Shown one piece after another: positions 5,916 to 42,249 of a DNA stretch of 64,000 nt; position 1 is the first letter of the stretch; the number at the start of each line of letters is the position of its first letter. The translations under genes and the position numbers were made by a program. The notes under the pieces are model-generated. The model had not been told where the DNA came from and did no database searches. It saw nothing but the letters and a program-made list of their open reading frames with translations. The stretch covers positions 43,323 to 107,322 of IMG/VR virus record IMGVR_UViG_3300003872_000001, one strand, 5' to 3'. The stretch is from a virus.

Positions 5916-6570
5916 AAAGATTACTTCGTATCATCATAGCATGTAACATAGCTTTTACAGTATTAGTAGAAACTACACCAGTAGCATAGTTTGCTAGTAC
6001 TTTTTGACTAACAGAACCTTGGCTTATTAACAATTTAGTCATAGCATCTTTACTGCCTAAATCACCACCACGATCTTTCATAAGTTCTTGAGCACTCTCT
6101 TTAATACCCATACCAACTAATATTTGTAATTCAGGTAAAGTTAATTTGCTAGCTTTACTTTCTCCAGTAACTTGACCAGTTAATAGATCTATTGTTTTAT
6201 CATCCTTAGGAATAGATATTTTTTTAGTTAAGATTTGGCTAGCACGTCTTGTTGCTATATTAAGAACTAAATATTTATTTGGTGTAATGTAAGGATGTTT
6301 TTTAGCAAATCGTAAACGTTGAAATACTGGCTCACCTAACTCCTCTACTATTTTCATACATTTTTTAGTGTCTAATTTAATATCAGATCCATTAGGTGCA
6401 ACGACAGATAATTTAATTTTTCTATCTCTTAGATCTCTCATAAAGTTATCAAAATCTTTATTAGACATATTTTTAAATATAAGATCTTTATATAGTTTCT
6501 TATTCTTGGTACCAGCTATCTTTTCTATATAAGTAAGTATAGTTTGTTCAGCTTTTTTTCTATCGGCCAT
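5914..6570 (-). CDS. Probable RNA polymerase beta C-terminal clamp fragment (split beta subunit)
   Basis: 218 residues. The order of motifs resembles the last 170 residues of bacterial beta (the Rpb2 domain 7 clamp segment). A YLVLNIATRRASQ stretch sits where beta has YMLKLNHLVDDK. About 45 residues later LPELQILVGMGIKESAQELM sits where beta has [20 protein letters not shown], followed by RGGD in place of SDD. The C-terminus, TVKAMLHAMMIRSNL, matches the beta ending ESFNVLLKEIRSLGINIEL in position and pattern. The main beta gene at 29230-33918 stops just before this region, so this protein could supply the missing part or belong to a second (virion) polymerase. Alternative: an unrelated virion protein. 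The alignment was made by eye. Confidence 0.5.
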   Translation of the reverse strand: MADRKKAEQTILTYIEKIAGTKNKKLYKDLIFKNMSNKDFDNFMRDLRDRKIKLSVVAPNGSDIKLDTKKCMKIVEELGEPVFQRLRFAKKHPYITPNKYLVLNIATRRASQILTKKISIPKDDKTIDLLTGQVTGESKASKLTLPELQILVGMGIKESAQELMKDRGGDLGSKDAMTKLLISQGSVSQKVLANYATGVVSTNTVKAMLHAMMIRSNL

Positions 6571-6583
6571 TGGGATTCCTTAT

Positions 6584-6609
6584 ATATGATGTAATATATT
6601 ACATCATAT
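6584..6609 (-). terminator. Hairpin between two minus-strand genes
   Basis: Perfect 12-bp inverted repeat ATATGATGTAAT and ATTACATCATAT with a 2-nt loop, lying in the gap between the stop of the 257-residue gene and the start of the 218-residue gene. It could attenuate read-through or protect an mRNA end. The sequence differs from the GTAGC/GCTAC family. Confidence 0.55.
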
Positions 6610-6612
6610 GAT

Positions 6613-7386
6613 TTAAAACATTATTGGTATACATATATTGGTAGGTGTCTTAATACCTAAGTATTTTACACGATATGTTTCACGATCAGACTGAGTTATC
6701 GTATATGTTGGAATAGGACTAGGTGTAGTGAATACGTCCTTAGGAGTACCAAGATTTAATAAACCAGCTAATTGATTCTTCTTATCTAAAACACCTACTT
6801 CTGGGGAATCTACAATTGTTTTCCATACATTATTACTACCATTACTTGCTAGTCCGTGCATAGTTACAACTTGGTGTTTATTAGATATGTCCTCTTTAAC
6901 TGTAGGTAATTTAAATATAGTTTCTAAAGGAAGAACGGCATCACTTGCTTCTTCATTCATAATACTACCACCACCAACTCTATAACCCCACACATCATAA
7001 CTATTACCCTTTAAGTTTTGATCTATATATTCAAGTTCAGGTATGAGTATAATATCCATATACACTTTATCATAATATGCACGCATATAGTTATTAGTAA
7101 CAGATGATGTAAATGATGTTAGAAATATAAATCTGTAATCTTTATTCTTTTTATAATAATTAGTATCAACAATGGTATTATTAGCGTCTTTACGACTTAA
7201 AACTAAAGGTGAATAAGTACTTGTTTTTACTTCTCTTCTGCTTATTAATGTATCACTAATGCTCATTAACGGTAAGGTCTCTTTAATAGTGATAACTAAG
7301 TTATTTCCTGTTAACGTTTGTTTTTTGCTTTCACTAACAGCTAACTCTACTTTACGTGTCTGAAAGTCTGGTTTTTTATATATCAT
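6613..7386 (-). CDS. Unknown protein, possibly virion structural
   Basis: 257 residues, rich in beta-strand-forming residues with no recognised motif. It lies in the minus-strand run between the beta-like fragment and two small genes, 19 bp after the upstream gene. A motif TTTCTTGATATTT on the minus strand about 25-40 nt before the start resembles the sequence before the 77-residue gene at 33970 and may be a promoter. AAGGA precedes the ATG. Function not assigned. Confidence 0.6.
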   Translation of the reverse strand: MIYKKPDFQTRKVELAVSESKKQTLTGNNLVITIKETLPLMSISDTLISRREVKTSTYSPLVLSRKDANNTIVDTNYYKKNKDYRFIFLTSFTSSVTNNYMRAYYDKVYMDIILIPELEYIDQNLKGNSYDVWGYRVGGGSIMNEEASDAVLPLETIFKLPTVKEDISNKHQVVTMHGLASNGSNNVWKTIVDSPEVGVLDKKNQLAGLLNLGTPKDVFTTPSPIPTYTITQSDRETYRVKYLGIKTPTNICIPIMF

Positions 7387-7405
7387 CTATTTATCCTTCA
7401 ATTTT

Positions 7406-7798
7406 TTAAATATCAAGAAAAATGTTATTAGTTATAAAGTATGGTAAAACTATTTCTTTCATAAGAGTAACCCAGTCTTCAATGTAACCATCATTTGCAA
7501 TAAACGGCAATACGTTATTTATAATATTACCACTAACACTTCTGTACACTAATAACTCGGTTATAAATAATCTATTTATAATTATCCTCTGCACTACTTG
7601 GTTCTTATTATAGATTGATTTAATATCAGGATTATTCAAAAACTTTTTACTGTGGTCTTTATTAGTAGTTGCTATATGGTCAGCTATTAGCTTAACCAAA
7701 TTAATATCTCCCGATGCTCTGGGTTCATTATATAAATCCATAACATTAACTATTGGTATTGGTTTTTCTTTCTTTTTTGTAACTTTATTAACACTCAT
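7406..7798 (-). CDS. Unknown protein, 130 residues
   Basis: Begins with a Lys-rich stretch (KVTKKKEKP), then is mostly helical with hydrophobic segments. The start overlaps the end of the upstream gene by 11 nt, which implies translational coupling. No family recognised. It lies in the same minus-strand operon as the dUTPase and the RecA-like ATPase. Confidence 0.6.
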   Translation of the reverse strand: MSVNKVTKKKEKPIPIVNVMDLYNEPRASGDINLVKLIADHIATTNKDHSKKFLNNPDIKSIYNKNQVVQRIIINRLFITELLVYRSVSGNIINNVLPFIANDGYIEDWVTLMKEIVLPYFITNNIFLDI

Positions 7799-8114
7799 AA
7801 GTATCTCCTAATTTAGTATTTTCTTTTAGCCAATTGAAATGTCTAATAACTTCAAAATTCTTATGCTTAGCGGCTATCTCATGCATAATAGTTATTATAT
7901 TTTTATATTTAGCATCGGTAGCTAATTTATTAACTACTTTAATTTCTGCACTCTGTATTAAAGGTCTAGTAGTTTCGGTTTGTGTCACACCACTCATGTG
8001 AAAACATAGTCTTTCTAAATAGTAAAAGTAAGTCTCTATTAAGGTATCATCCTTAACATTTAAATTGAATTTTAACCATTCCGGATCCATTGTACACCAA
8101 TTCTTAAGCTTCAT
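7788..8114 (-). CDS. Unknown protein, 108 residues, in dUTPase operon
   Basis: A longer frame extends upstream into the dUTPase gene, but the ATG at 8114 (MKLKNW) starts 1 nt after the dUTPase stop and gives normal operon packing, so this start is preferred. Helical and compact, with no recognised motif. It overlaps the next gene by 11 nt. Confidence 0.6.
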   Translation of the reverse strand: MKLKNWCTMDPEWLKFNLNVKDDTLIETYFYYLERLCFHMSGVTQTETTRPLIQSAEIKVVNKLATDAKYKNIITIMHEIAAKHKNFEVIRHFNWLKENTKLGDTYEC

Positions 8115-8115
8115 T

Positions 8116-8811
8116 CTATTTACCTTGACAATCTTGATCTTGAAAATCTTTATTTGCAATATAATATTTATCATACTCTGCATATAGCTCGTCAAATGAT
8201 AAATCATTATTATTAGAAAATATTCTACAAATATGAACATTATCTTCCTCACCATTTATCACTTTCATATAAGTTCCATCTTTATAACCGTTATCTTGTC
8301 TAAATATATTAAGTACATTCTTAATGACGTATAAAGTGTATAATTCATCTATATCCATATGTATACTATTCATAACTTTAGCAAAATTAAATATTAATGT
8401 TCCTATACTGTATGGTCTAATAAAAGTTACCTCAAGAAGACCTTCTAAGCATTCTACAGTTTCTAAATAATCTAGCGGACCAGTTTTCTTTTCAATATGT
8501 TCAGATAATAAATCAGAGCACATCTCTTCAGTTATATTTGTACCTGCTATCTCAATACCCCTACTCATAATGAAATGCCAAATATCAACAACTTCTATTT
8601 TAAGATTATCCCAATCTACAGCACCATCTAAATTCTTCCAATGCTTATAAGTATCGCTACTGTCTATGGCCTCAGCTATTTCTTGTCTAATATATCTTAA
8701 CCATGTTATTTTTCTACCATTAGTAGTTCTACCTTCAGGCCAATTTTTACCACATGTTTTAACATTAAGTGCATCTTGTAATGCAACCATTTCTCCTATT
8801 TTAGAATTCAT
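8116..8811 (-). CDS. Dimeric (all-alpha) dUTPase-like pyrophosphatase
   Basis: 231 residues. It would hydrolyse dUTP to dUMP and pyrophosphate, keeping uracil out of phage DNA and supplying dUMP for thymidylate. The all-alpha NTP pyrophosphatase pattern is visible: E44-x-x-E47 (RQEIAEA), then HWK at 57-59, then E73-x-x-D76 in KIEVVDIWHF, the metal-binding helices of the dimeric dUTPase/MazG superfamily. The HWK plus EVVDIWHF spacing fits dimeric dUTPase better than MazG. It is packed 1 nt from both neighbours in the minus-strand operon headed by the RecA-like ATPase. A MazG-type or dCTP-acting pyrophosphatase is the main alternative. Confidence 0.75.
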   Translation of the reverse strand: MNSKIGEMVALQDALNVKTCGKNWPEGRTTNGRKITWLRYIRQEIAEAIDSSDTYKHWKNLDGAVDWDNLKIEVVDIWHFIMSRGIEIAGTNITEEMCSDLLSEHIEKKTGPLDYLETVECLEGLLEVTFIRPYSIGTLIFNFAKVMNSIHMDIDELYTLYVIKNVLNIFRQDNGYKDGTYMKVINGEEDNVHICRIFSNNNDLSFDELYAEYDKYYIANKDFQDQDCQGK

Positions 8812-25371: not shown

Positions 25372-28300
25372 ATGGACCCGTTTAATATAGAATTATTATT
25401 TTTAAATAAAAATAATTTAAAGCAATTAGGACAAGTAAAAAGTCTTGATATATTTGAGCCTAATACAGATATATTTAAAATAGATGGATTATTCTCACAG
25501 GAAATATTTGGACCTGTTGGATCAGAGATACGTACTATGAAATATGGTTATATAGATCTTAAACTTAAGATCATGCACCCACTGGCATTTAGATCACTTA
25601 TACAATTAAAAACATTATACAGCGACATTGCATCTGGTAAAAAATACGCAATATTTGATGAAGAACTTGGTGACTTTACTTTATCTAACCCTATAGATGG
25701 AAAAACAGGTTATGACTTTTTTTATAACCATATATTTAAACTTAAATTACTTGCTAATAATAGTGACAGTAGAAGTTTTAAAATAGAATTGATAAAGAAG
25801 TATTATAGTGTACCTAGTCAAGTACATACTTTAACTAAATGGTTAGTGTACCCAGCCGGATTAAGAGACTATAGTTTAGATAAAGATGGTAGAGGTAGTT
25901 ATGATGAAGTAAATGATATTTATAAGAAGCTATTATCTACTGCCAATATGCTTAATAATACAACTATAGACAGTAATAATTTAAGAATGTTCAATACTAT
26001 ACGATATAAGCTACAAGGTATAACTTTAGAAATTTATGAGTATTTTGAAAATTTACTTAAAGGTAAAAAGAAATTCCTACAAAATAAATGGACAAAAAGA
26101 GCTATCGTTTATGGTACGCGAAATGTTATTACAGCTACACCTATCGTTATAGATGATGTTAATAATAAAAATAAAATATCTTTTAATAATACTGTTATAG
26201 GGTTATACCAATATTTAGAAGCAGCTAACCCTATAGTTAAGCATCAAGTATTGAAAATGTTTTCTCATAAGATATTCAATCCTGATACTAATACAGCTCC
26301 GTTAGTAAACATTAAAACTATGCAAACAACATTAGTGGACATAAGTAGCAAAAGTAGAGACGATTGGCTATCGGAAGAGTACTTAGATAATACTATAGCT
26401 AAAATGGGACAAGAGTTCTATAGAAGTGAACCTATTTTAGTAGAAGATAATTATTTAATGTTAATATACGATGACGGGAAGTACGTAGAACTGATCTTTA
26501 ATACTGGTGAAATGGATAGTAGTTTAAATAAGAAATATCTTAGACCTATTACATATGCAGAATTATTTTATCTTGCTATATATGAGATTCGTAATAAATA
26601 TCCAGGCCTTATAACAAGATACCCAGTTACTGAAGAGGGATCTATATACCCAACTATCCCTTATGTAAAAACTACTAATATTAGTAGGACAGTTAAAATG
26701 AAGTACTATGGAGAAATGATTGACGTGTATGAGTATCCTATTCTAAGCGAAAATTATTTTAACTCACTAAGTGTACATAGTACACACTTAGGTCACCTTG
26801 GAGCTGACTTTGATGGTACAGTCGTAGAATAGTTTCCGTAGATATTAAAAAGTAAGAGATTTACTGCACTTAGAAGCTTTTATATTACTAAAAAAGCTTA
26901 CTACCTTATTTATTGATAGTATAAAATAAATAAGGATTTAACATGAGTAATCTCAGATTCGATGTAGTCGGTAACAACGACTATTATATAACAGAACATT
27001 TAGAAATTGGTAAAAATAATGAAAAAGCTAGAAATCTTGTATTCGATAAAGATAAAGTTTTTATAACATTATTTGGTTATAGACACAAGGTAAAATTAGA
27101 ATGGCTTTATTGGTTAAGCTACTATAAACTAAATTTACCGAATAATTATGAAAGATATATTAGTGATATTAGATTTTATAGTTTAAGCAGAGATGGTAGA
27201 ACTCTTACCGATGACCATATAGTTTTATTTAAAAAGCCTGTTATAATAAAATATGGCTCTACTGTGTTTAGATTATTGGCAAGATTTCCTAATTACGCTA
27301 TATCTAAAGACGGAACTATTATGAACATGAAAACTAAGTTCTTTAAAAAGCCTAGTAGTAATGAAAAAAATAGATATTTAAGATCTAATATTATTGATCA
27401 AGCTGGACTTTATTCTAGTAACACTAGAGTCACACATAGATTAGTAGCACTAGCATGGGTTCCCAATCCTAATAACGATTTTATAGCTAGACCTATAGTA
27501 GATCACATAGATGGTAATAAAACTAACTGTCATGCCGATAACTTAAGATGGATATCGTTTTTAGGTAATAGTTTAGCAGCAGTAGATCAAGGTCTCAATA
27601 CTATAGCGATACCGGTACTTAGTAAAAATATAGATACGGGTGAGGTAGAAAAATGGGGATCTTTAACCAGGTTCACTGAAGCCAAAGGTAGGACGAGAAT
27701 AGATACTAATGCAGCTCCATTATATAAGTCTAAAGTATGGAAAACTCCTAATGGCGATTATTTACTTAAGTACTTAAGTGATTCCACACCTTGGGCTAAT
27801 AGTGAAGATATTAAAAACAATACCAATACTAAATTAACTATAATTATTAAAGATAAAACATTCACTATACATGGTCGTAACTCTTTGAAAGATTTTGCCA
27901 AGAAAGAATTTGATATAATTATACATGGTAAACAAAGTATAAATAAATCTATAAAACAATTCTTAGATAGATACATAGCTAAATATGATAATAATATAAA
28001 AATAATCATAGATAGACCTAAATACCAAAATGATTTAAATAAAATATTATATAAAGCTAAGAATTTAGTAACTGGTGAAGTGTTAATAAATAAAACTAGA
28101 AAAGAGTTATTAGAATATACCGGTATACCAAAATCATCTATAACTAAAAGCATAGCTAATACTGGATTATATTCTTACAATGATTGGGTGTTTACTACTA
28201 TGTATATAGACTTTCCTAAAGAGAAAGATGTTAAATTTGTTAAATATAATTATAAAATAAAAGTAACCAATACAAAAACCAATAAATCTGTTATATATGA

Positions 28301-28963
28301 TAGCTTAAGAAAAGCTTCTAGTGAATTAGACATACCTAGAAGAAAACTTAAAGCTATATTGAATAATACTAATAATATCTTTAGTGGACATATATTCACT
28401 ATGATATAAGTGCCCGTTGTAGAAGTAATTCTATAATGACAACCAAGCTAATTGCGGGAAGCCACTAAAGCTTATAACTACCACTTATAGATGGAAACAT
28501 ACTATAATACTCCAGCCGTAATAGAGGAACTAGGAGCATGGTAAAAACGTTATAAGATGTATATGGGTAATCAGCGCAGCGAAGCACCTTAAACAGCGAG
28601 AGCTATCCTGTATGGAGTGTGTGTGTTCAACGACTAACGGATTGATCACCGTGTAGGGCTCAAGTGAGTGGGTATAGAATCCCTTAAATCGAAATGCTGG
28701 GAACCTATCTATAAGGTTCTTGATATAGTCTCGTCATGCAGGGAAAGCCTGCAGCAGTTCATAAGAGAACGCGGTCAGTGTAACGAACTGATTGGAAGGT
28801 TTCGGACGTGGTTTCATTTAACCTTCTCTATACTGATGAAAGTATAGCTGAAATAAATAAACTACTTAAAAATAAAAAATTTTATCTAACAGGTAATAAT
28901 GACCTGATGTACCGAGTGAGTACAGATCCATTAGAGCTAGTATTAAAACATTTAACTTTTTAA
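25372..28963 (+). CDS. RNA polymerase beta' N-terminal subunit, two exons joined over a group I intron
   Basis: Exons 25372-26817 and 28805-28963, 534 residues after splicing. It is the N-terminal half of a phage multisubunit RNA polymerase beta' chain. The start has GLFSQEIFGPV near residue 41, where cellular beta' has the EKIFGP motif, and KIMHPLAFRSLIQLK near 67. The catalytic magnesium motif is HLGADFDG (to residue 482) plus D483 from exon 2, giving ADFDGD with D479, D481 and D483. After splicing the chain continues VVSFNLLYTDESIAEI and ends KHLTF. The unspliced frame would stop 3 codons into the intron (GTC GTA GAA TAG). The C-terminal half of beta' is not in this window, so the chain is split as in phiKZ relatives. 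AAGGAG precedes the ATG. Confidence 0.85.
26818..28804 (+). mobile_element. Group I intron 1 (with HNH gene) in the beta' active-site codons
   Basis: The 5' exon ends ...GATGGT and the intron ends in G at 28804, restoring GAT GGT | GAC GTG, the expected U-before and G-last pattern for group I. The 3' part (about 28430-28804) has group I core blocks: AATTGCGGGAA, GCGCAGCGAAG, GTTCAACGACTA, GGGCTCAAGTGAGTGGGTA and GATATAGTC. It is closely related to intron 2 over the last 370 nt. Length 1987 nt, including the HNH gene 26943-28409. Confidence 0.85.
26943..28409 (+). CDS. Intron-encoded HNH homing endonuclease
   Basis: 488 residues inside intron 1, in its own frame with AAGGA before the ATG. A NUMOD4/HNH region runs from about residue 115 to 205: FPNYAISKDGTIMN, then HRLVALAWVPNP, then VDHIDGNKTNCHADNLRWIS, which has the HNH_3 pattern. 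The C-terminal third contains NUMOD1-like units (NKTRKELLEYTGIPKSSITK and SLRKASSELDIPRRKLKAIL) that would bind the target site. The expected role is to cut an intronless beta' allele at its DFDGD codons and promote intron spread. Confidence 0.85.
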   Translation: MSNLRFDVVGNNDYYITEHLEIGKNNEKARNLVFDKDKVFITLFGYRHKVKLEWLYWLSYYKLNLPNNYERYISDIRFYSLSRDGRTLTDDHIVLFKKPVIIKYGSTVFRLLARFPNYAISKDGTIMNMKTKFFKKPSSNEKNRYLRSNIIDQAGLYSSNTRVTHRLVALAWVPNPNNDFIARPIVDHIDGNKTNCHADNLRWISFLGNSLAAVDQGLNTIAIPVLSKNIDTGEVEKWGSLTRFTEAKGRTRIDTNAAPLYKSKVWKTPNGDYLLKYLSDSTPWANSEDIKNNTNTKLTIIIKDKTFTIHGRNSLKDFAKKEFDIIIHGKQSINKSIKQFLDRYIAKYDNNIKIIIDRPKYQNDLNKILYKAKNLVTGEVLINKTRKELLEYTGIPKSSITKSIANTGLYSYNDWVFTTMYIDFPKEKDVKFVKYNYKIKVTNTKTNKSVIYDSLRKASSELDIPRRKLKAILNNTNNIFSGHIFTMI

Positions 28964-28978
28964 AGGAATACTATAGTA

Positions 28979-29227
28979 ATGAAAGAAATGAAGATATATT
29001 TAGAAAAAGATTCAAAACATAGAACTAGACGAACTAAATATCGTGATGTAGCTGACCAAGGTACAGTTATAGGCGATATTGATGAGGGACAAGTATTTTT
29101 ATGTGGTACTAGAATAGCCGCTAATCAAATGGTTTGGCGTATACCATTCGCATGGAGATATGATATTTATGATATATATTATGAAGGTAATATACCAGTT
29201 ATCGAATTTACACAAATTAAGGAATAA
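28979..29227 (+). CDS. Small unknown protein between beta' and beta genes
   Basis: 82 residues. AAAGGA precedes the ATG, 15 nt after the beta' stop and 2 nt before the beta start, so the three genes form one transcript. The composition (KHRTRRTKYR, many aromatics) suggests a small compact domain. Its place makes a polymerase accessory role possible, but nothing in the sequence proves it. Confidence 0.6.
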   Translation: MKEMKIYLEKDSKHRTRRTKYRDVADQGTVIGDIDEGQVFLCGTRIAANQMVWRIPFAWRYDIYDIYYEGNIPVIEFTQIKE

Positions 29228-29229
29228 TA

Positions 29230-32200
29230 ATGAATTTCAATGAATTTTATAAAAAATATGGTAATAGACGTAGTACAAGTCTTATAGAGCCTAAAACTGT
29301 AGATAACGATAGTTTTAAATTTCCTAGAAATAGTATCTTGCAATGGGTTATGGTATCTGATGTAGTGGTTCCTATGACTACAGATTATGGATATTTACAT
29401 AATGAAAAGTTGCCAGTGGTAACTACACCATTAAAGTATAGTAAAGATATTGATCTCGTAGGAACTCCTATACAAAAACCTATAGTTGTCGCTAGAATAA
29501 TGAAAGAGTTAAAATCTAATGAACCTACATTTAAATTTTTAAAACCTAATATTAAATCTATAAAAGTACCTAATACTAAATTATTCATTTTTAATTATGG
29601 AGTAGTAGGTGCAAGTTATAGATATAGTATAGATCCACTTAATGACTATTACAAATATGTTAATACGATGAAAACTATTCTATATAACAGCAGCATAGCT
29701 AATATGGGCGATGGTAGACATCAATTTATACTTATTGATTTACCATTATCTATACCAAACCGTATGGTTCTAGATAGGTTTTTAACTAAAATGACTAAAG
29801 TAGGATTAGAACATTTTAGTACTTATAAACATTTGATTATGTTAGAATTATGGAAATTCCTATCACCTGATACAGAATCACTATTTGATGTACTATCATT
29901 AGCCGATTATAAAAATATAACTTTAATGTTTAATAGTAACGGCAAAGTGTCATTCCTTAATTTAAATTTATTATTAAGTTTATCTAAGGATAGACCTGAT
30001 GTAGTTACAGGATTAAATAAGGTTCCTTCTGAAACTTTAAAGAAAATGTTTTATGTATTTATTACTAAATTATCAAATGTAGTTAATATTCCCGATGCTG
30101 CTATTAAAAAAACAAATGAGTTAATGAACAGTGTGGTAGGTAGTAATAATATGCAATTAGAAGAAAATGAAGAACATTTAGACTCTAAGAATATAGATAA
30201 AGCATTATCAGAAGAACTAGATGATATACCAGATAGTGATAGTATTGACGATATGGTTACTGATTCTGAGATAGAAAAAATATCAGAAACTGCTATGACA
30301 ACCTATGATACAAAAAAAGAACTATTAGACACTAAAGATAATCCTAAAGCAGAGCTAACTAAGAAATTAGATTTATTAAAGAAACATAAAGTTATTTCTA
30401 AAACAAAATTTGATAATTTACATACAGCACTTGCTAATCAAACTAAAATGACAATAGATTTACCAGGTAAAGGTGAAACAAAACTTACTGATCTTTTAAC
30501 TATATCTGATAAAGATTTAACGTTAACTAATAAAGAAATAGAATTACCTGCAGCTAAATCAGTATTAGATCCAACTATGAATAAAAATGTAACATCAGTT
30601 ATGATTTCTAAATATATTGAAAATAAATATTATAAAGATATGACTAGAAGTTTATTCGGATTACAAAAGGCTGGTGTAATTATTAATAGTTATAAAATAG
30701 AGTCAGGTGCGAATATATTAGGTGAATTTCAAATCCATACAATAGAAGTTGTATTATTAGATGGTAGTAAAAGTAAACTAACATTTAAATTACCTACTAT
30801 TTCTAAAGATGGTTCTTTTAAAATGAGTACTCATTCTTATTATATGCGTATGCAGAAAGTAGACAAGGTTATAGTTAAAGTAGGCTTTAACAAAGTTAAT
30901 CTTAATACATACTATGGTAAATTATCTGTGACTAAAGCTACATTTAAAAAAGATGATGCCGGATATGTCTTTAGGAATAAGTTATTAAAATTATCAGAGA
31001 TTAATAAAGAACTAACTAATATAGGACTATTAGATAATATCAAAATGGATCAAACTTTACCTATTGCTTATACTACTATTTCTCGTTATGTAAAAAAGTT
31101 TACACTAGGTAATCTCAATTATAATTTTGATTATGATAATAGAGATAAATTACTACCTAAGATTAAGTTAGACTCTATTGAAAAAAATAAAATTTTAGTA
31201 GGTGTAACTAATGACGGGAAGCCACTATTGATGGATAATGATGGTGTGGTTTATTTAAACAATAAACCTATAGGTACAATATTGCACCAATTAGGCCTTA
31301 AACAAAATGCATTACCAATAGAGTATGCTAATTTAAGGATTCTTAAAAAACAAATACCACTAGTTACTATACTCAGTTATTATATAGGCTTACAATCACT
31401 GTTCAAAATACTTAACACTAAATTTACTAAACATCAAGTTAAAGAAAAAATTACATTAGATCCTAATCAGTATGTAGTATTATTTAAAGATGTTAAGTTA
31501 ATCATTGAAAGAGACTATGGTCTAAGTGATATGATTATAGCTGGACTAGTTAGTATAAAAAATATTACAAGAAATATTAATTTTTCAGTTATGACAAATA
31601 AAGATAACTTTAGCATACTCTTCAATATGATGGAGTTAAGTATAACTTATATTAATGAGATTAAACTTTTAGAGACAATGTATATAGATCCTATGAGTGA
31701 AAATGTACTTAAAAGTATGCATGAACCAATTGTCTTTAAAGCACTATTGATAAGAGCTGCTGAATTGCTTTTAACGGATGATTATATAAATCCAAATGAT
31801 GTAACTAACATATTGGTAAAAGGTTATGAACGCATTCCTGGTATGGTTTATAATGAATTAGTACGGGCTATGAAAGAGCATGCAAATGCATCAATCTTTG
31901 GCAAAAGTAGATTACAGATTAACCCTTACTCAGTATGGGCAACTATAGGCTCTGATAGTACAACTGTATTGATAGATGATCTCAACCCAGTAGCTGAAAT
32001 AAAACAATTTGAAGATGTATCAGCATTAGGTAAATTTGGTAGAATAAAAGAAACATTCACTAAGGATACCCGTAGTATTGATGAATCAGAAATAGGACTA
32101 TTTTCAGAAGCAGTTAAAGATAGTGGTGATGTGGGTATAACTGCATATTTATCAGGTGCACCTACATTTAAAAATATATTAGGAGAAGTTAATAAATTTG

Positions 32201-33918
32201 ACTGGAAAGAAGATGGAATGACTTCTATTTTATCTACTCCGGGATTACTGACTCCATTTACAATAACTGATGATGCAAAAAGATCAACAGACATCCTATA
32301 AGAGAGTTATATTTCTTATAAGAATGTGATATGTAGATAATAAATAATATAGAATATTTTGAAATATCAGGATATTCCAATAATATAAAAAAGATTCTAA
32401 TAAATTTATTTATTATCACACATATCGTTTAGGTCCAGATTTACAGTAATGTAAATTGGTTATCTTTCTAATTGCGGGGAATCCTTAAAGTCTATAGATA
32501 CTACTTACATATGGAAACATGATGTAATACTCACTTCAGTAATGGAGATAGTGAGCATAGTAAAAACTCTATAGAATATGACAATAGGCAACCGGCGCAG
32601 CGAAGTCTCTACGTGACTCAGTCATACGAGATGTGTTCAACGACTATCCCTGTAACGGGAGTAGGGCTCAAGTGAGTGGGTATGAAATCCCTTAAATCGA
32701 AATGTTAGACACCCTATCATTATAAATGAGGGTGAAGATATAGTCTCGACATGCAGGGAAAGCCTGCAGCAGTTCATAAGAGAACGCGGTCAGTGTAACG
32801 AACTGATCGGAAGATACGCAAATTTCTCTACGATTATGGCGTCACACGCTATACCAATGAAGTCATCTAGTTCTTCTTATGTACGAACTGGTTATGAATC
32901 TGTGCTAGCATTAAGAGCTAGTAAAAAGTTTGTAATACATGCGGAGCAAGATGGAAAAATAACTGATGTTAGTCCACAGTACATTAAAGGTGTTTATAAG
33001 GACGGTACACAATTTAAATATAGTATTAAGAAATGGACTTCTAAAGAAGAGGCTGGCTCAACTTATACGCATAAAATGATACCTGCATTAGGCAAAAATA
33101 AAACATTTAAAACTGGTGATGCATTAGTATATGATCCTATCTTTTTTGAAAAAGATATATTCGATCCAGGTAAAGTTGTCTATAAGACTTCCACTAATAT
33201 GCGCATCGCGTTATTAGAAGACATTCAAACATTTGAGGACTCTTGTACTATAAGCAAAAAGATGTCTAAAAAAACAGGTATAGAAATTACAAAGGTAAAG
33301 TCATTTGTTTTAAATACTTCTGATGTAATAGCTAACCTAGTAAAAATTGGTAGTAAGATAAATGCCAATGATCCATTATTTACAATTGTAGATAAGTATG
33401 TAGCTCGCTCTGCTAAAACTTTAGATAAAGAAACATTAGAGTTACTTAAAGCATTAAAGAACAATAGTCCTAAAGCTAAATACAAAGGAATTATTGAGAA
33501 TGTTGTTATTATGTATAATGCAGAGCCGGATGAAATTTCTAAAAGTGCACAAGAACTTATAGATGCTAGTGATATTAGATTAAAAGCTAATAAAGGTTTT
33601 ATAGGGAAAGTTGATAGCACATATAGTGTTGCGGGAAGTAAATTGATGCCTGGTACTATGGAAATCAAAATATATATTATTACAAAAGAAAATAGTGGTA
33701 TTGGCGATAAGTTTATAGTTGGAGGTCAACTTAAGTGTACAGTTTCAGAGGTTGCTGATTATGAAATATATACAGCAGATACCAATACTGAAGTTGATAT
33801 GACATTTAGTATGAAGGCTATAAACGCCAGGATTGTTAATAGTGCTTTCATCACAGGTATGGCGGGTAGGGCTTTAGAAGCTCTGGAAAATAAAGTAATA
33901 CGGGAATATTTTGGTTAA
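29230..33918 (+). CDS. RNA polymerase beta subunit, two exons joined over a group I intron
   Basis: Exons 29230-32284 and 32819-33918, 1384 residues after splicing. The join restores DDAKR-S-NFSTIMASHAIPM, equivalent to the rifampicin-region motif DDANRALMGSNMQRQAVP of cellular beta. Exon 2 then shows NMRIALLEDIQTFEDSCTIS, equivalent to NMRVAFMPWNGYNFEDSI, and GIGDKFIVGGQLKCTVS, equivalent to GDKMAGRHGNKGVVS. It ends at VREYFG-like residues soon after, so the C-terminal clamp region of cellular beta is absent. A candidate for that piece is the 218-residue gene at 5914-6570. The first 1000 residues are longer than the matching part of bacterial beta and include an acidic insertion around 300-380. 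Confidence 0.85.
32285..32818 (+). mobile_element. Group I intron 2 (no ORF) in the beta gene
   Basis: 534 nt. Exon 1 ends ...AAAAGAT and the intron ends in G at 32818; splicing gives AAA AGA TCA AAT. The core blocks AATTGCGGGGAA, GCGCAGCGAAG, GTTCAACGACTA, GGCTCAAGTGAGTGGGTA and GATATAGTC are shared with intron 1, as is the 3' block GCAGTTCATAAGAGAACGCG and the following TCAGTGTAACGAACTGAT. It carries no endonuclease gene, so any mobility would need help in trans. The exact boundaries could shift by a base or two. Confidence 0.8.
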
Positions 33919-41379: not shown

Positions 41380-42249
41380 TTAGTAGTCGTTAAAACCTAC
41401 TTTAGATGCAGTAACATTAGCGTCCGCTCCATCTTTATTAGGTACAATCATATCAGTGTCAGGTATTTTATTAAGTACACTTAACGCTGACAATGTTGTT
41501 TGTCCTAAGTCCAAAACATTTTCATTGTTCATAGTTATACCAGTCCAGTCAATAGAAAGTTCTTTACCTTCTCCGGCTGAATTCATATTCCTTTGCCCAG
41601 TTCTTTCGCCGTTTGATTTAGGCATCATATTAACTCTTAGCCAAGCATCAACTACAACCTTTTGAGTAATATCAGGTTCTATAAATAACACCGTACCGGT
41701 ATAAAAATCTGGAGTATAAATACCAATAGTATCCATATTTTTAATTAAATTAGATACTAATGGTTTTTTAGTATCAGGATCCATCATACCATATCGGATT
41801 AGAATATCAAAGAACTTAGTAATAGCTTTATTAGCTTTTTCTTTATAAGTTGTAGCTAATGAACTTCTAGCTCTTTTGACATCAGTTATTGACTCTTGTT
41901 GTTCACCGCCACCGCCAATTGGTGTTTCATCAAATTCAACTGTTAAACCTGAAGTTAAACCAGTTATAGTTAATGGATGAAGTTCTATAAGAGCTTTATA
42001 CGTAGCTATCCATTTTGCCGTGTCTTGCATATATTGAAAAAATCCAGGTGTTCGCAGAACGATCGGGATTACATTATTCGATACATATGACGCATTCGAT
42101 ATCCATTCGTCATATACTTTACCATCAGCAGCGATAGTACCTATCTTAGGCATATATCCTTGCTGTCCACCATCAACTAAGTTTGCGGTTGGTGCAGCTT
42201 CTGCAAAAAGTTTATTCTTTTCTAAAACAGCATTTTTTAATCTTGCCAT
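41380..42249 (-). CDS. Tail tube protein
   Basis: 289 residues, matching the size of phiKZ-type tail tube proteins, and directly downstream of the sheath gene, as in those phages. Strand-rich segments around residues 95-115 and 160-215, and an insert with GGGGEQQ near 115. It would form the inner tube through which DNA passes. The assignment rests on length, position after the sheath and general pattern; there is no short diagnostic motif. Confidence 0.7.
   Translation of the reverse strand: MARLKNAVLEKNKLFAEAAPTANLVDGGQQGYMPKIGTIAADGKVYDEWISNASYVSNNVIPIVLRTPGFFQYMQDTAKWIATYKALIELHPLTITGLTSGLTVEFDETPIGGGGEQQESITDVKRARSSLATTYKEKANKAITKFFDILIRYGMMDPDTKKPLVSNLIKNMDTIGIYTPDFYTGTVLFIEPDITQKVVVDAWLRVNMMPKSNGERTGQRNMNSAGEGKELSIDWTGITMNNENVLDLGQTTLSALSVLNKIPDTDMIVPNKDGADANVTASKVGFNDY

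Follow-up and report, generated by a model that had tools for sequence, protein, structure and literature searches.

The window analysed here, a stretch of 64,000 nucleotides covering positions 43323-107322 of a 107-kb virus contig (IMG/VR record IMGVR_UViG_3300003872_000001), carries a gene for the beta' N-terminal subunit of virion RNA polymerase in two exons, separated within the codons of the catalytic motif DFDGD. Exon 1 (25372..26817, plus strand; phrog_2986, E=1.7e-148; tblastn with 295 phage records) comprises codons 1-482 and ends in HLGADFDG, its last codon being GGT (Gly482). Exon 2 (28805..28963, plus strand) was recovered by a profile built from 97 intact C-terminal stretches (E=4.5e-18) and by alignment with intact homologues; it runs from GAC, the codon of the third catalytic aspartate (Asp483), to Phe534 and a stop codon at 28961-28963, and translates as DVVSFNLLYTDESIAEINKLLKNKKFYLTGNNDLMYRVSTDPLELVLKHLTF. 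The joined protein has 534 residues, with DFDGD, the catalytic metal-binding site, at residues 479-483; the predicted ligated junction reads GATGGT-GACGTG, and ...GADFDGDVVSFN... in protein.

Intact beta' proteins of known jumbo phages cover 99% of the joined protein in a single tblastn piece, with homology to the virion beta' N-terminal subunit along the whole length and DxDGD at the expected place. Identity to PhiPA3 gp212 is 37%. Aligned with nine intact homologues, it shows no gap at the junction, and D479, D481, G482 and D483 are invariant. Used as a single sequence, the joined protein matched no solved structure, and a ten-sequence profile was needed to reach beta' of the AR9 non-virion polymerase (7s01, E=1.1e-16), in which DYDGD is co-linear with DFDGD of the window, the motif stretch alone being weak there. 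This agrees with the original prediction of a phage RNA polymerase beta' and of its active-site motif, and homology refines the assignment: the split subunit is the N-terminal beta' of a virion polymerase, in the group of PhiPA3 gp212 and phiKZ gp180. The gene order, beta' followed by beta, is the same as in PhiPA3, and an 82-aa ORF without a PHROGs match (28979-29227) lies between the two genes.

Boundaries and RNA core of the beta' intron

The intervening 1987 nt (26818..28804, plus strand) are a group I intron, as predicted. We considered all junction pairs in which exon 1 ends in T, the intron ends in G and DxDGD is restored in frame, and exactly one solution was found (26817 / 28805), so that the insertion between Gly482 and Asp483 stands with its numbering unchanged. 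Its 3' boundary reads TTTCG^GAC, with the terminal G (omega G) present. Its RF00028 match (28384-28754; 49.2 bits, E=6.3e-11, and E=7e-13 in the own-genome search) spans the full model length (1-253), and the catalytic core (P3-P8) is recognised. Given that this score is 0.8 bits under the RF00028 gathering score of 50, a default Rfam scan of the window returned no match; the fast filters also missed a second intron, in the beta gene. Around the beta' intron, Rfam yielded no other family.

The 5' strand of P1, GGU^AC (26815..26819, plus strand), spans the 5' splice site and would pair with a putative internal guide sequence, GUGCC (28410..28414, plus strand), which would form the 3' strand and place the last exon base, U, opposite the guide G at 28412 as a U.G pair at the splice site. 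This P1 is short (5 pairs, one of them U.G) and weak by itself, and is supported by its spacing, since the guide G precedes the P4 anchor by 38 nt, a distance of 37-40 nt in most introns of the DxDGD motif. An alternative P1 at 28416, the best by automated score, was rejected in favour of 28412 with its conserved spacing. P7 can be assigned to GACUA (28632..28636, plus strand), inside the conserved UUCAACGACUA, and UAGUC (28726..28730, plus strand), inside GAUAUAGUC; L045b, another intron of the DxDGD motif, shows a compensatory change there (GACCA/UGGUC). A simple search for P3 gave inconsistent results among introns, and by eye the window and the related locus L027 can be given a P3 that contains one compensatory change (C-G to U-A). 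Inspection of the window intron produced no convincing P10 pairing with the 3' exon. Minimum-energy folding fails to show the core, and stability is modestly above that of shuffles (z -1.84).

Past Gly482, the unspliced frame reads ...DFDGTVVE and stops at a TAG inside the intron (26830-26832). A complete active site would therefore depend on splicing, in line with the original prediction. Intein and frameshift readings were rejected because in-frame stop codons directly follow the junction and an RNA core is present. Jumbo phage polymerase genes are divided into several polypeptides (PMC7598289), and exon 1 has its own stop codon, so we weighed whether the gene is truly split into two translated chains, or the intron dead and the polymerase lost. 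Exon 2, however, has neither a start codon of its own nor a ribosome site at the junction, its chain would begin inside the active-site loop, it is conserved in frame as the profile match attests, and the intron retains P1, P4 and P7 elements. Known splits fall after the double-psi barrel domain and not inside DxDGD (PMC7598289). We give this reading almost no credence.

The intron endonuclease and sister introns on the contig

An HNH nuclease had been predicted inside the intron, and the corresponding ORF (488 aa; 26943..28409, plus strand) matches PF13392 (HNH_3; E=1.4e-6), phrog_59 (E=2.6e-25) and PhiPA3 gp210 (28% identity over 132 aa of the HNH region, E=1e-11). The HNH signature HRLVALAW...VDHIDGNKTNCHADNLRW (residues 165-203; 27435..27551, plus strand) is intact (HRL...DHIDGNK...NLRW) and aligns with PhiPA3 gp210 and with the HNH stretch of the solved I-HmuI structure 1u3e, to which the match is weak (E=0.013). 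The best full-length relatives of this putative homing endonuclease are proteins of other jumbo phages, at ~29% identity. Given that the guide sequence starts directly after its stop codon, the ORF would be placed in the P1 loop.

The gene for the partner subunit is also interrupted. Beta exon 1 (29230..32284, plus strand; phrog_3148, E=1.5e-203) ends in ...TDDAKR-S(U), and exon 2 (32819..33918, plus strand; phrog_3148 profile positions 1062-1420) continues as SNFSTIMASHAIPM... once joined; comparison with intact beta genes identifies the interrupted stretch as DDAKR-S. Between them lies a group I intron of 534 nt without a long ORF (32285..32818, plus strand; RF00028 at window positions 32404-32769, 74.6 bits). 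The beta intron shares 81% identity with the beta' intron over 335 nt, with two or three differences in the final 77 nt toward the 3' exon; these near-identical ends suggest recent copying or gene conversion between the two.

A search of the phage's own genome gave four RF00028 matches on the contig. Outside the window are two further group I introns (G000:C1:33557-33919, minus strand, and 41499-41853, plus strand; loci L006 and L007), hosted, by inspection, by a DnaB-like helicase gene and a gene for a 450-aa ORF without known function. Elsewhere in beta, near residue 546 of the window's protein, a recurrent interruption was seen in L039, L043, L044, L056 and L092, with gaps of 0.4-2 kb, and L036 and L073 have RF00028 introns near the beta DD motif.

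Interruptions of the DxDGD codons among relatives

Queried separately, exon 1 and the HNH ORF found no close relative of the window phage in IMG/VR, with or without the intron, and mobility was therefore inferred from other relatives. Two IMG/VR scans for beta' used queries that end before the motif, so that interruption was not selected against, and returned 160 loci, 119 of them distinct. DxDGD is intact in 99 of the 119 and interrupted in 20, which removes the uniqueness implied by the original prediction. At interrupted loci the match is contiguous up to the break, which always falls inside the same 15 nt.

Six insertion positions are used within these 15 nt. By the rule used, exon 1 ends in U at all junctions (P1 U.G), with a single solution in almost all, while junctions of double introns were assigned by reading. 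Insertions after nt 3 (D^xDGD) occur in L046, L103, L132, L136, L141, L142, L148, L153 and L172, as well as in the first introns of L045 and L069 and in phages LC, LucasX, MS31 and TSL-2019. Those after nt 4 are found in L164, L169, L183 and the first intron of L027, and one after nt 5 in L057. EL, phiRU and the second introns of L045 and L069 use the position after nt 9 (DxD^GD), and the window, the second intron of L027 and Aeromonas phages AhC3_1 and CF8 that after nt 12 (DxDG^D). VP4B was assigned to the position after nt 15 (DYDGD^Q), where several junctions fit and the chosen one restores the usual QLNSNG. RF00028 supports nearly all of the motif introns. L148 and L169 have no RF00028 match above threshold; those of AhC3_1 and CF8 have no Rfam match, and a P1 pairing (CGGU^AA/UUGCCG) and a P4-like stretch are present in them. 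Of the 21 motif introns measured, 12 have no ORF.

Mapped on a tree of 128 beta' sequences, intron state requires no fewer than 20 changes, gains and losses pooled, and at least 16 of them are forced by well-supported branches. An empty allele defines the boundaries to the base in one pair of near-identical phages: L136 has a 1299-nt intron, L138 is intronless, and the joined flanks of the former align with the latter over 450/450 bases with no gap, at 92.9%. The L148 intron (6450-8465) contains ~700 nt extra and is otherwise ~90% identical to that of L136. In Photobacterium phage PDCC-1 (L013, 4931-6660), a hybrid intron combines a 5' half like that of TSL-2019 (site D^YDGD) with a 3' half like that of VP4B (site DYDGD^Q); the ligated exons would lack YDGD, and the arrangement is either a recombinant or an assembly chimera. 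The group I match at L034 (5890-6450) is weak (36.5 bits); the first exon there ends in DFD, and GD codons could not be located ahead of exon 2.

Three contigs have two introns flanking a microexon, an arrangement in which each catalytic aspartate lies on its own exon. In L045 (5934-6690) and L069 (5928-6815), which come from two different metagenomes, tandem introns surround the 6-nt microexon TTCGAT (motif D^FD^GD), each locus has two RF00028 introns (78-80 bits in one, 76 and 64 bits in the other), and P1 is canonical for both introns. In L027 (5923-6724), a relative at 47% identity, an 8-nt microexon, ATGACGGT, lies between two introns (motif D^(Y)DG^D). Its second intron, inside which the contig ends, occupies the window's exact site and is 76% identical to the window intron over the 256 nt that precede the contig end, as against 58.7% for exon DNA. 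Small exons as such are not new: mitochondrial genes are reported to contain mini-exons of fewer than four codons as a regular feature (PMC10352661), and phage phiNIT1 has a small exon flanked by two introns (PMC11878797). If the microexons described here are true, splicing must join an exon that doubles as the P1 partner of the next intron, and these loci would test the smallest exon that a group I ribozyme can manage.

We are confident that group I introns have settled repeatedly in the DxDGD codons of the jumbo phage virion polymerase, with at least six positions in 15 nt, many gains and losses, and, in three contigs of two lineages, aspartates distributed over three exons around 6- or 8-nt microexons. 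The literature searched held no report of such a hot spot; the AR9 (2016) and EL (2005) genome papers were outside that search.

Mobility, regulation and known systems

The window very likely contains a mobile-type, HNH-encoding group I intron that settled in virion polymerase beta' between Gly482 and Asp483 of DFDGD and that would both self-splice and home. Once transcribed, the intron would fold so that GGU at the exon end pairs with the guide GUGCC to form P1, with U.G at the splice site and the P3/P7 core downstream. With a guanosine cofactor, it would then excise itself and join GGT to GAC, restoring the full active site. The HNH protein would nick or cut the conserved site of intronless, co-infecting phages, and the intron may spread by homing. 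Conserved catalytic codons suit such an element well, since the target has little room to mutate and an imprecise loss kills the phage. It is generally accepted that group I introns insert into active-site codons (for example, PMC12908238).

The original prediction went further and held that splicing would control phage transcription, with phage or host conditions modulating excision and hence the amount of active virion polymerase. Unspliced RNA would give a truncated subunit lacking Asp483, so any change in splicing would alter active polymerase, and the partner catalytic subunit carries a related intron. Because the virion polymerase is produced to be packaged into the next virions, a switch of this kind would act in the next infection. 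The site is intronless in the same 99 of 119 relatives, near-identical phages differ in intron presence, position and size, which fits a mobile element and not a conserved switch, and Rfam revealed no riboswitch or conserved regulatory element near the intron. Regulation of transcription by splicing is possible, yet the sequence offers no sign of it, and we regard a regulatory switch as very unlikely.

Introns of the I-HmuI/SPO1 type in phage DNA polymerase genes, as well as those of Twort, likewise combine a group I ribozyme with an HNH_3/NUMOD-type endonuclease in an active-site stretch of an essential gene; the window intron differs from them in host gene and in the position of its ORF, in the P1 loop. 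By blastn, its core resembles introns of AR9, PBS1 and Staphylococcus phage K. Birkholz et al. (2024; PMC11620839) described its closest known counterpart, the gp210 intron of PhiPA3 in the virion polymerase beta gene (gp211/209). Both are HNH-encoding group I introns at conserved aspartates of a catalytic subunit of the virion polymerase, but the PhiPA3 intron interrupts beta, after DD of the DDxKR motif, whereas that of the window interrupts the DxDGD of beta'. The ORF-less intron in beta of the window phage is inserted 10 nt further downstream than the one of PhiPA3.

The HNH enzyme of the PhiPA3 beta intron nicks phiKZ (PMC11620839), and this direct precedent in the partner subunit raises the possibility that the window intron serves as a domesticated weapon, with the HNH protein retained for cutting the polymerase gene of competing phages. 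The intact HNH and the near-invariance of the target codons among relatives favour such a role; against it, no competitor is known, and the absence of the ORF from more than half of the motif introns measured fits the decay of a selfish element equally well. We hold this role as tentative, though it is compatible with a mobile intron, of which it would be a consequence.

Among GenBank jumbo phages, DxDGD introns occur in Pseudomonas phages EL/phiRU and LC, Vibrio phages VP4B, 2 TSL-2019 and MS31, Aeromonas phages AhC3_1 and CF8, and Xanthomonas phage LucasX. AhC3_1 and CF8 share the gene and the exact position of the window (DFDG^D), but their introns, of 256-257 nt and without an ORF, are unrelated to it in sequence. 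Most of the others differ in position (D^FDGD, DHD^GD or DYDGD^Q). In these named phages, the two beta' exons are mostly annotated as separate 'hypothetical proteins', so that such phages may seem to have no complete polymerase active site, a warning for annotation.

The window intron adds an active-site insertion in beta' to the one already described for the beta subunit of this polymerase, and it does so in a single phage whose two catalytic subunits each contain a sister intron. The DxDGD pattern could provide a clean system for the old question of introns in catalytic codons, offering one motif with many independent invasions, empty alleles, positions that follow the U rule, and endonucleases that have been kept or lost.
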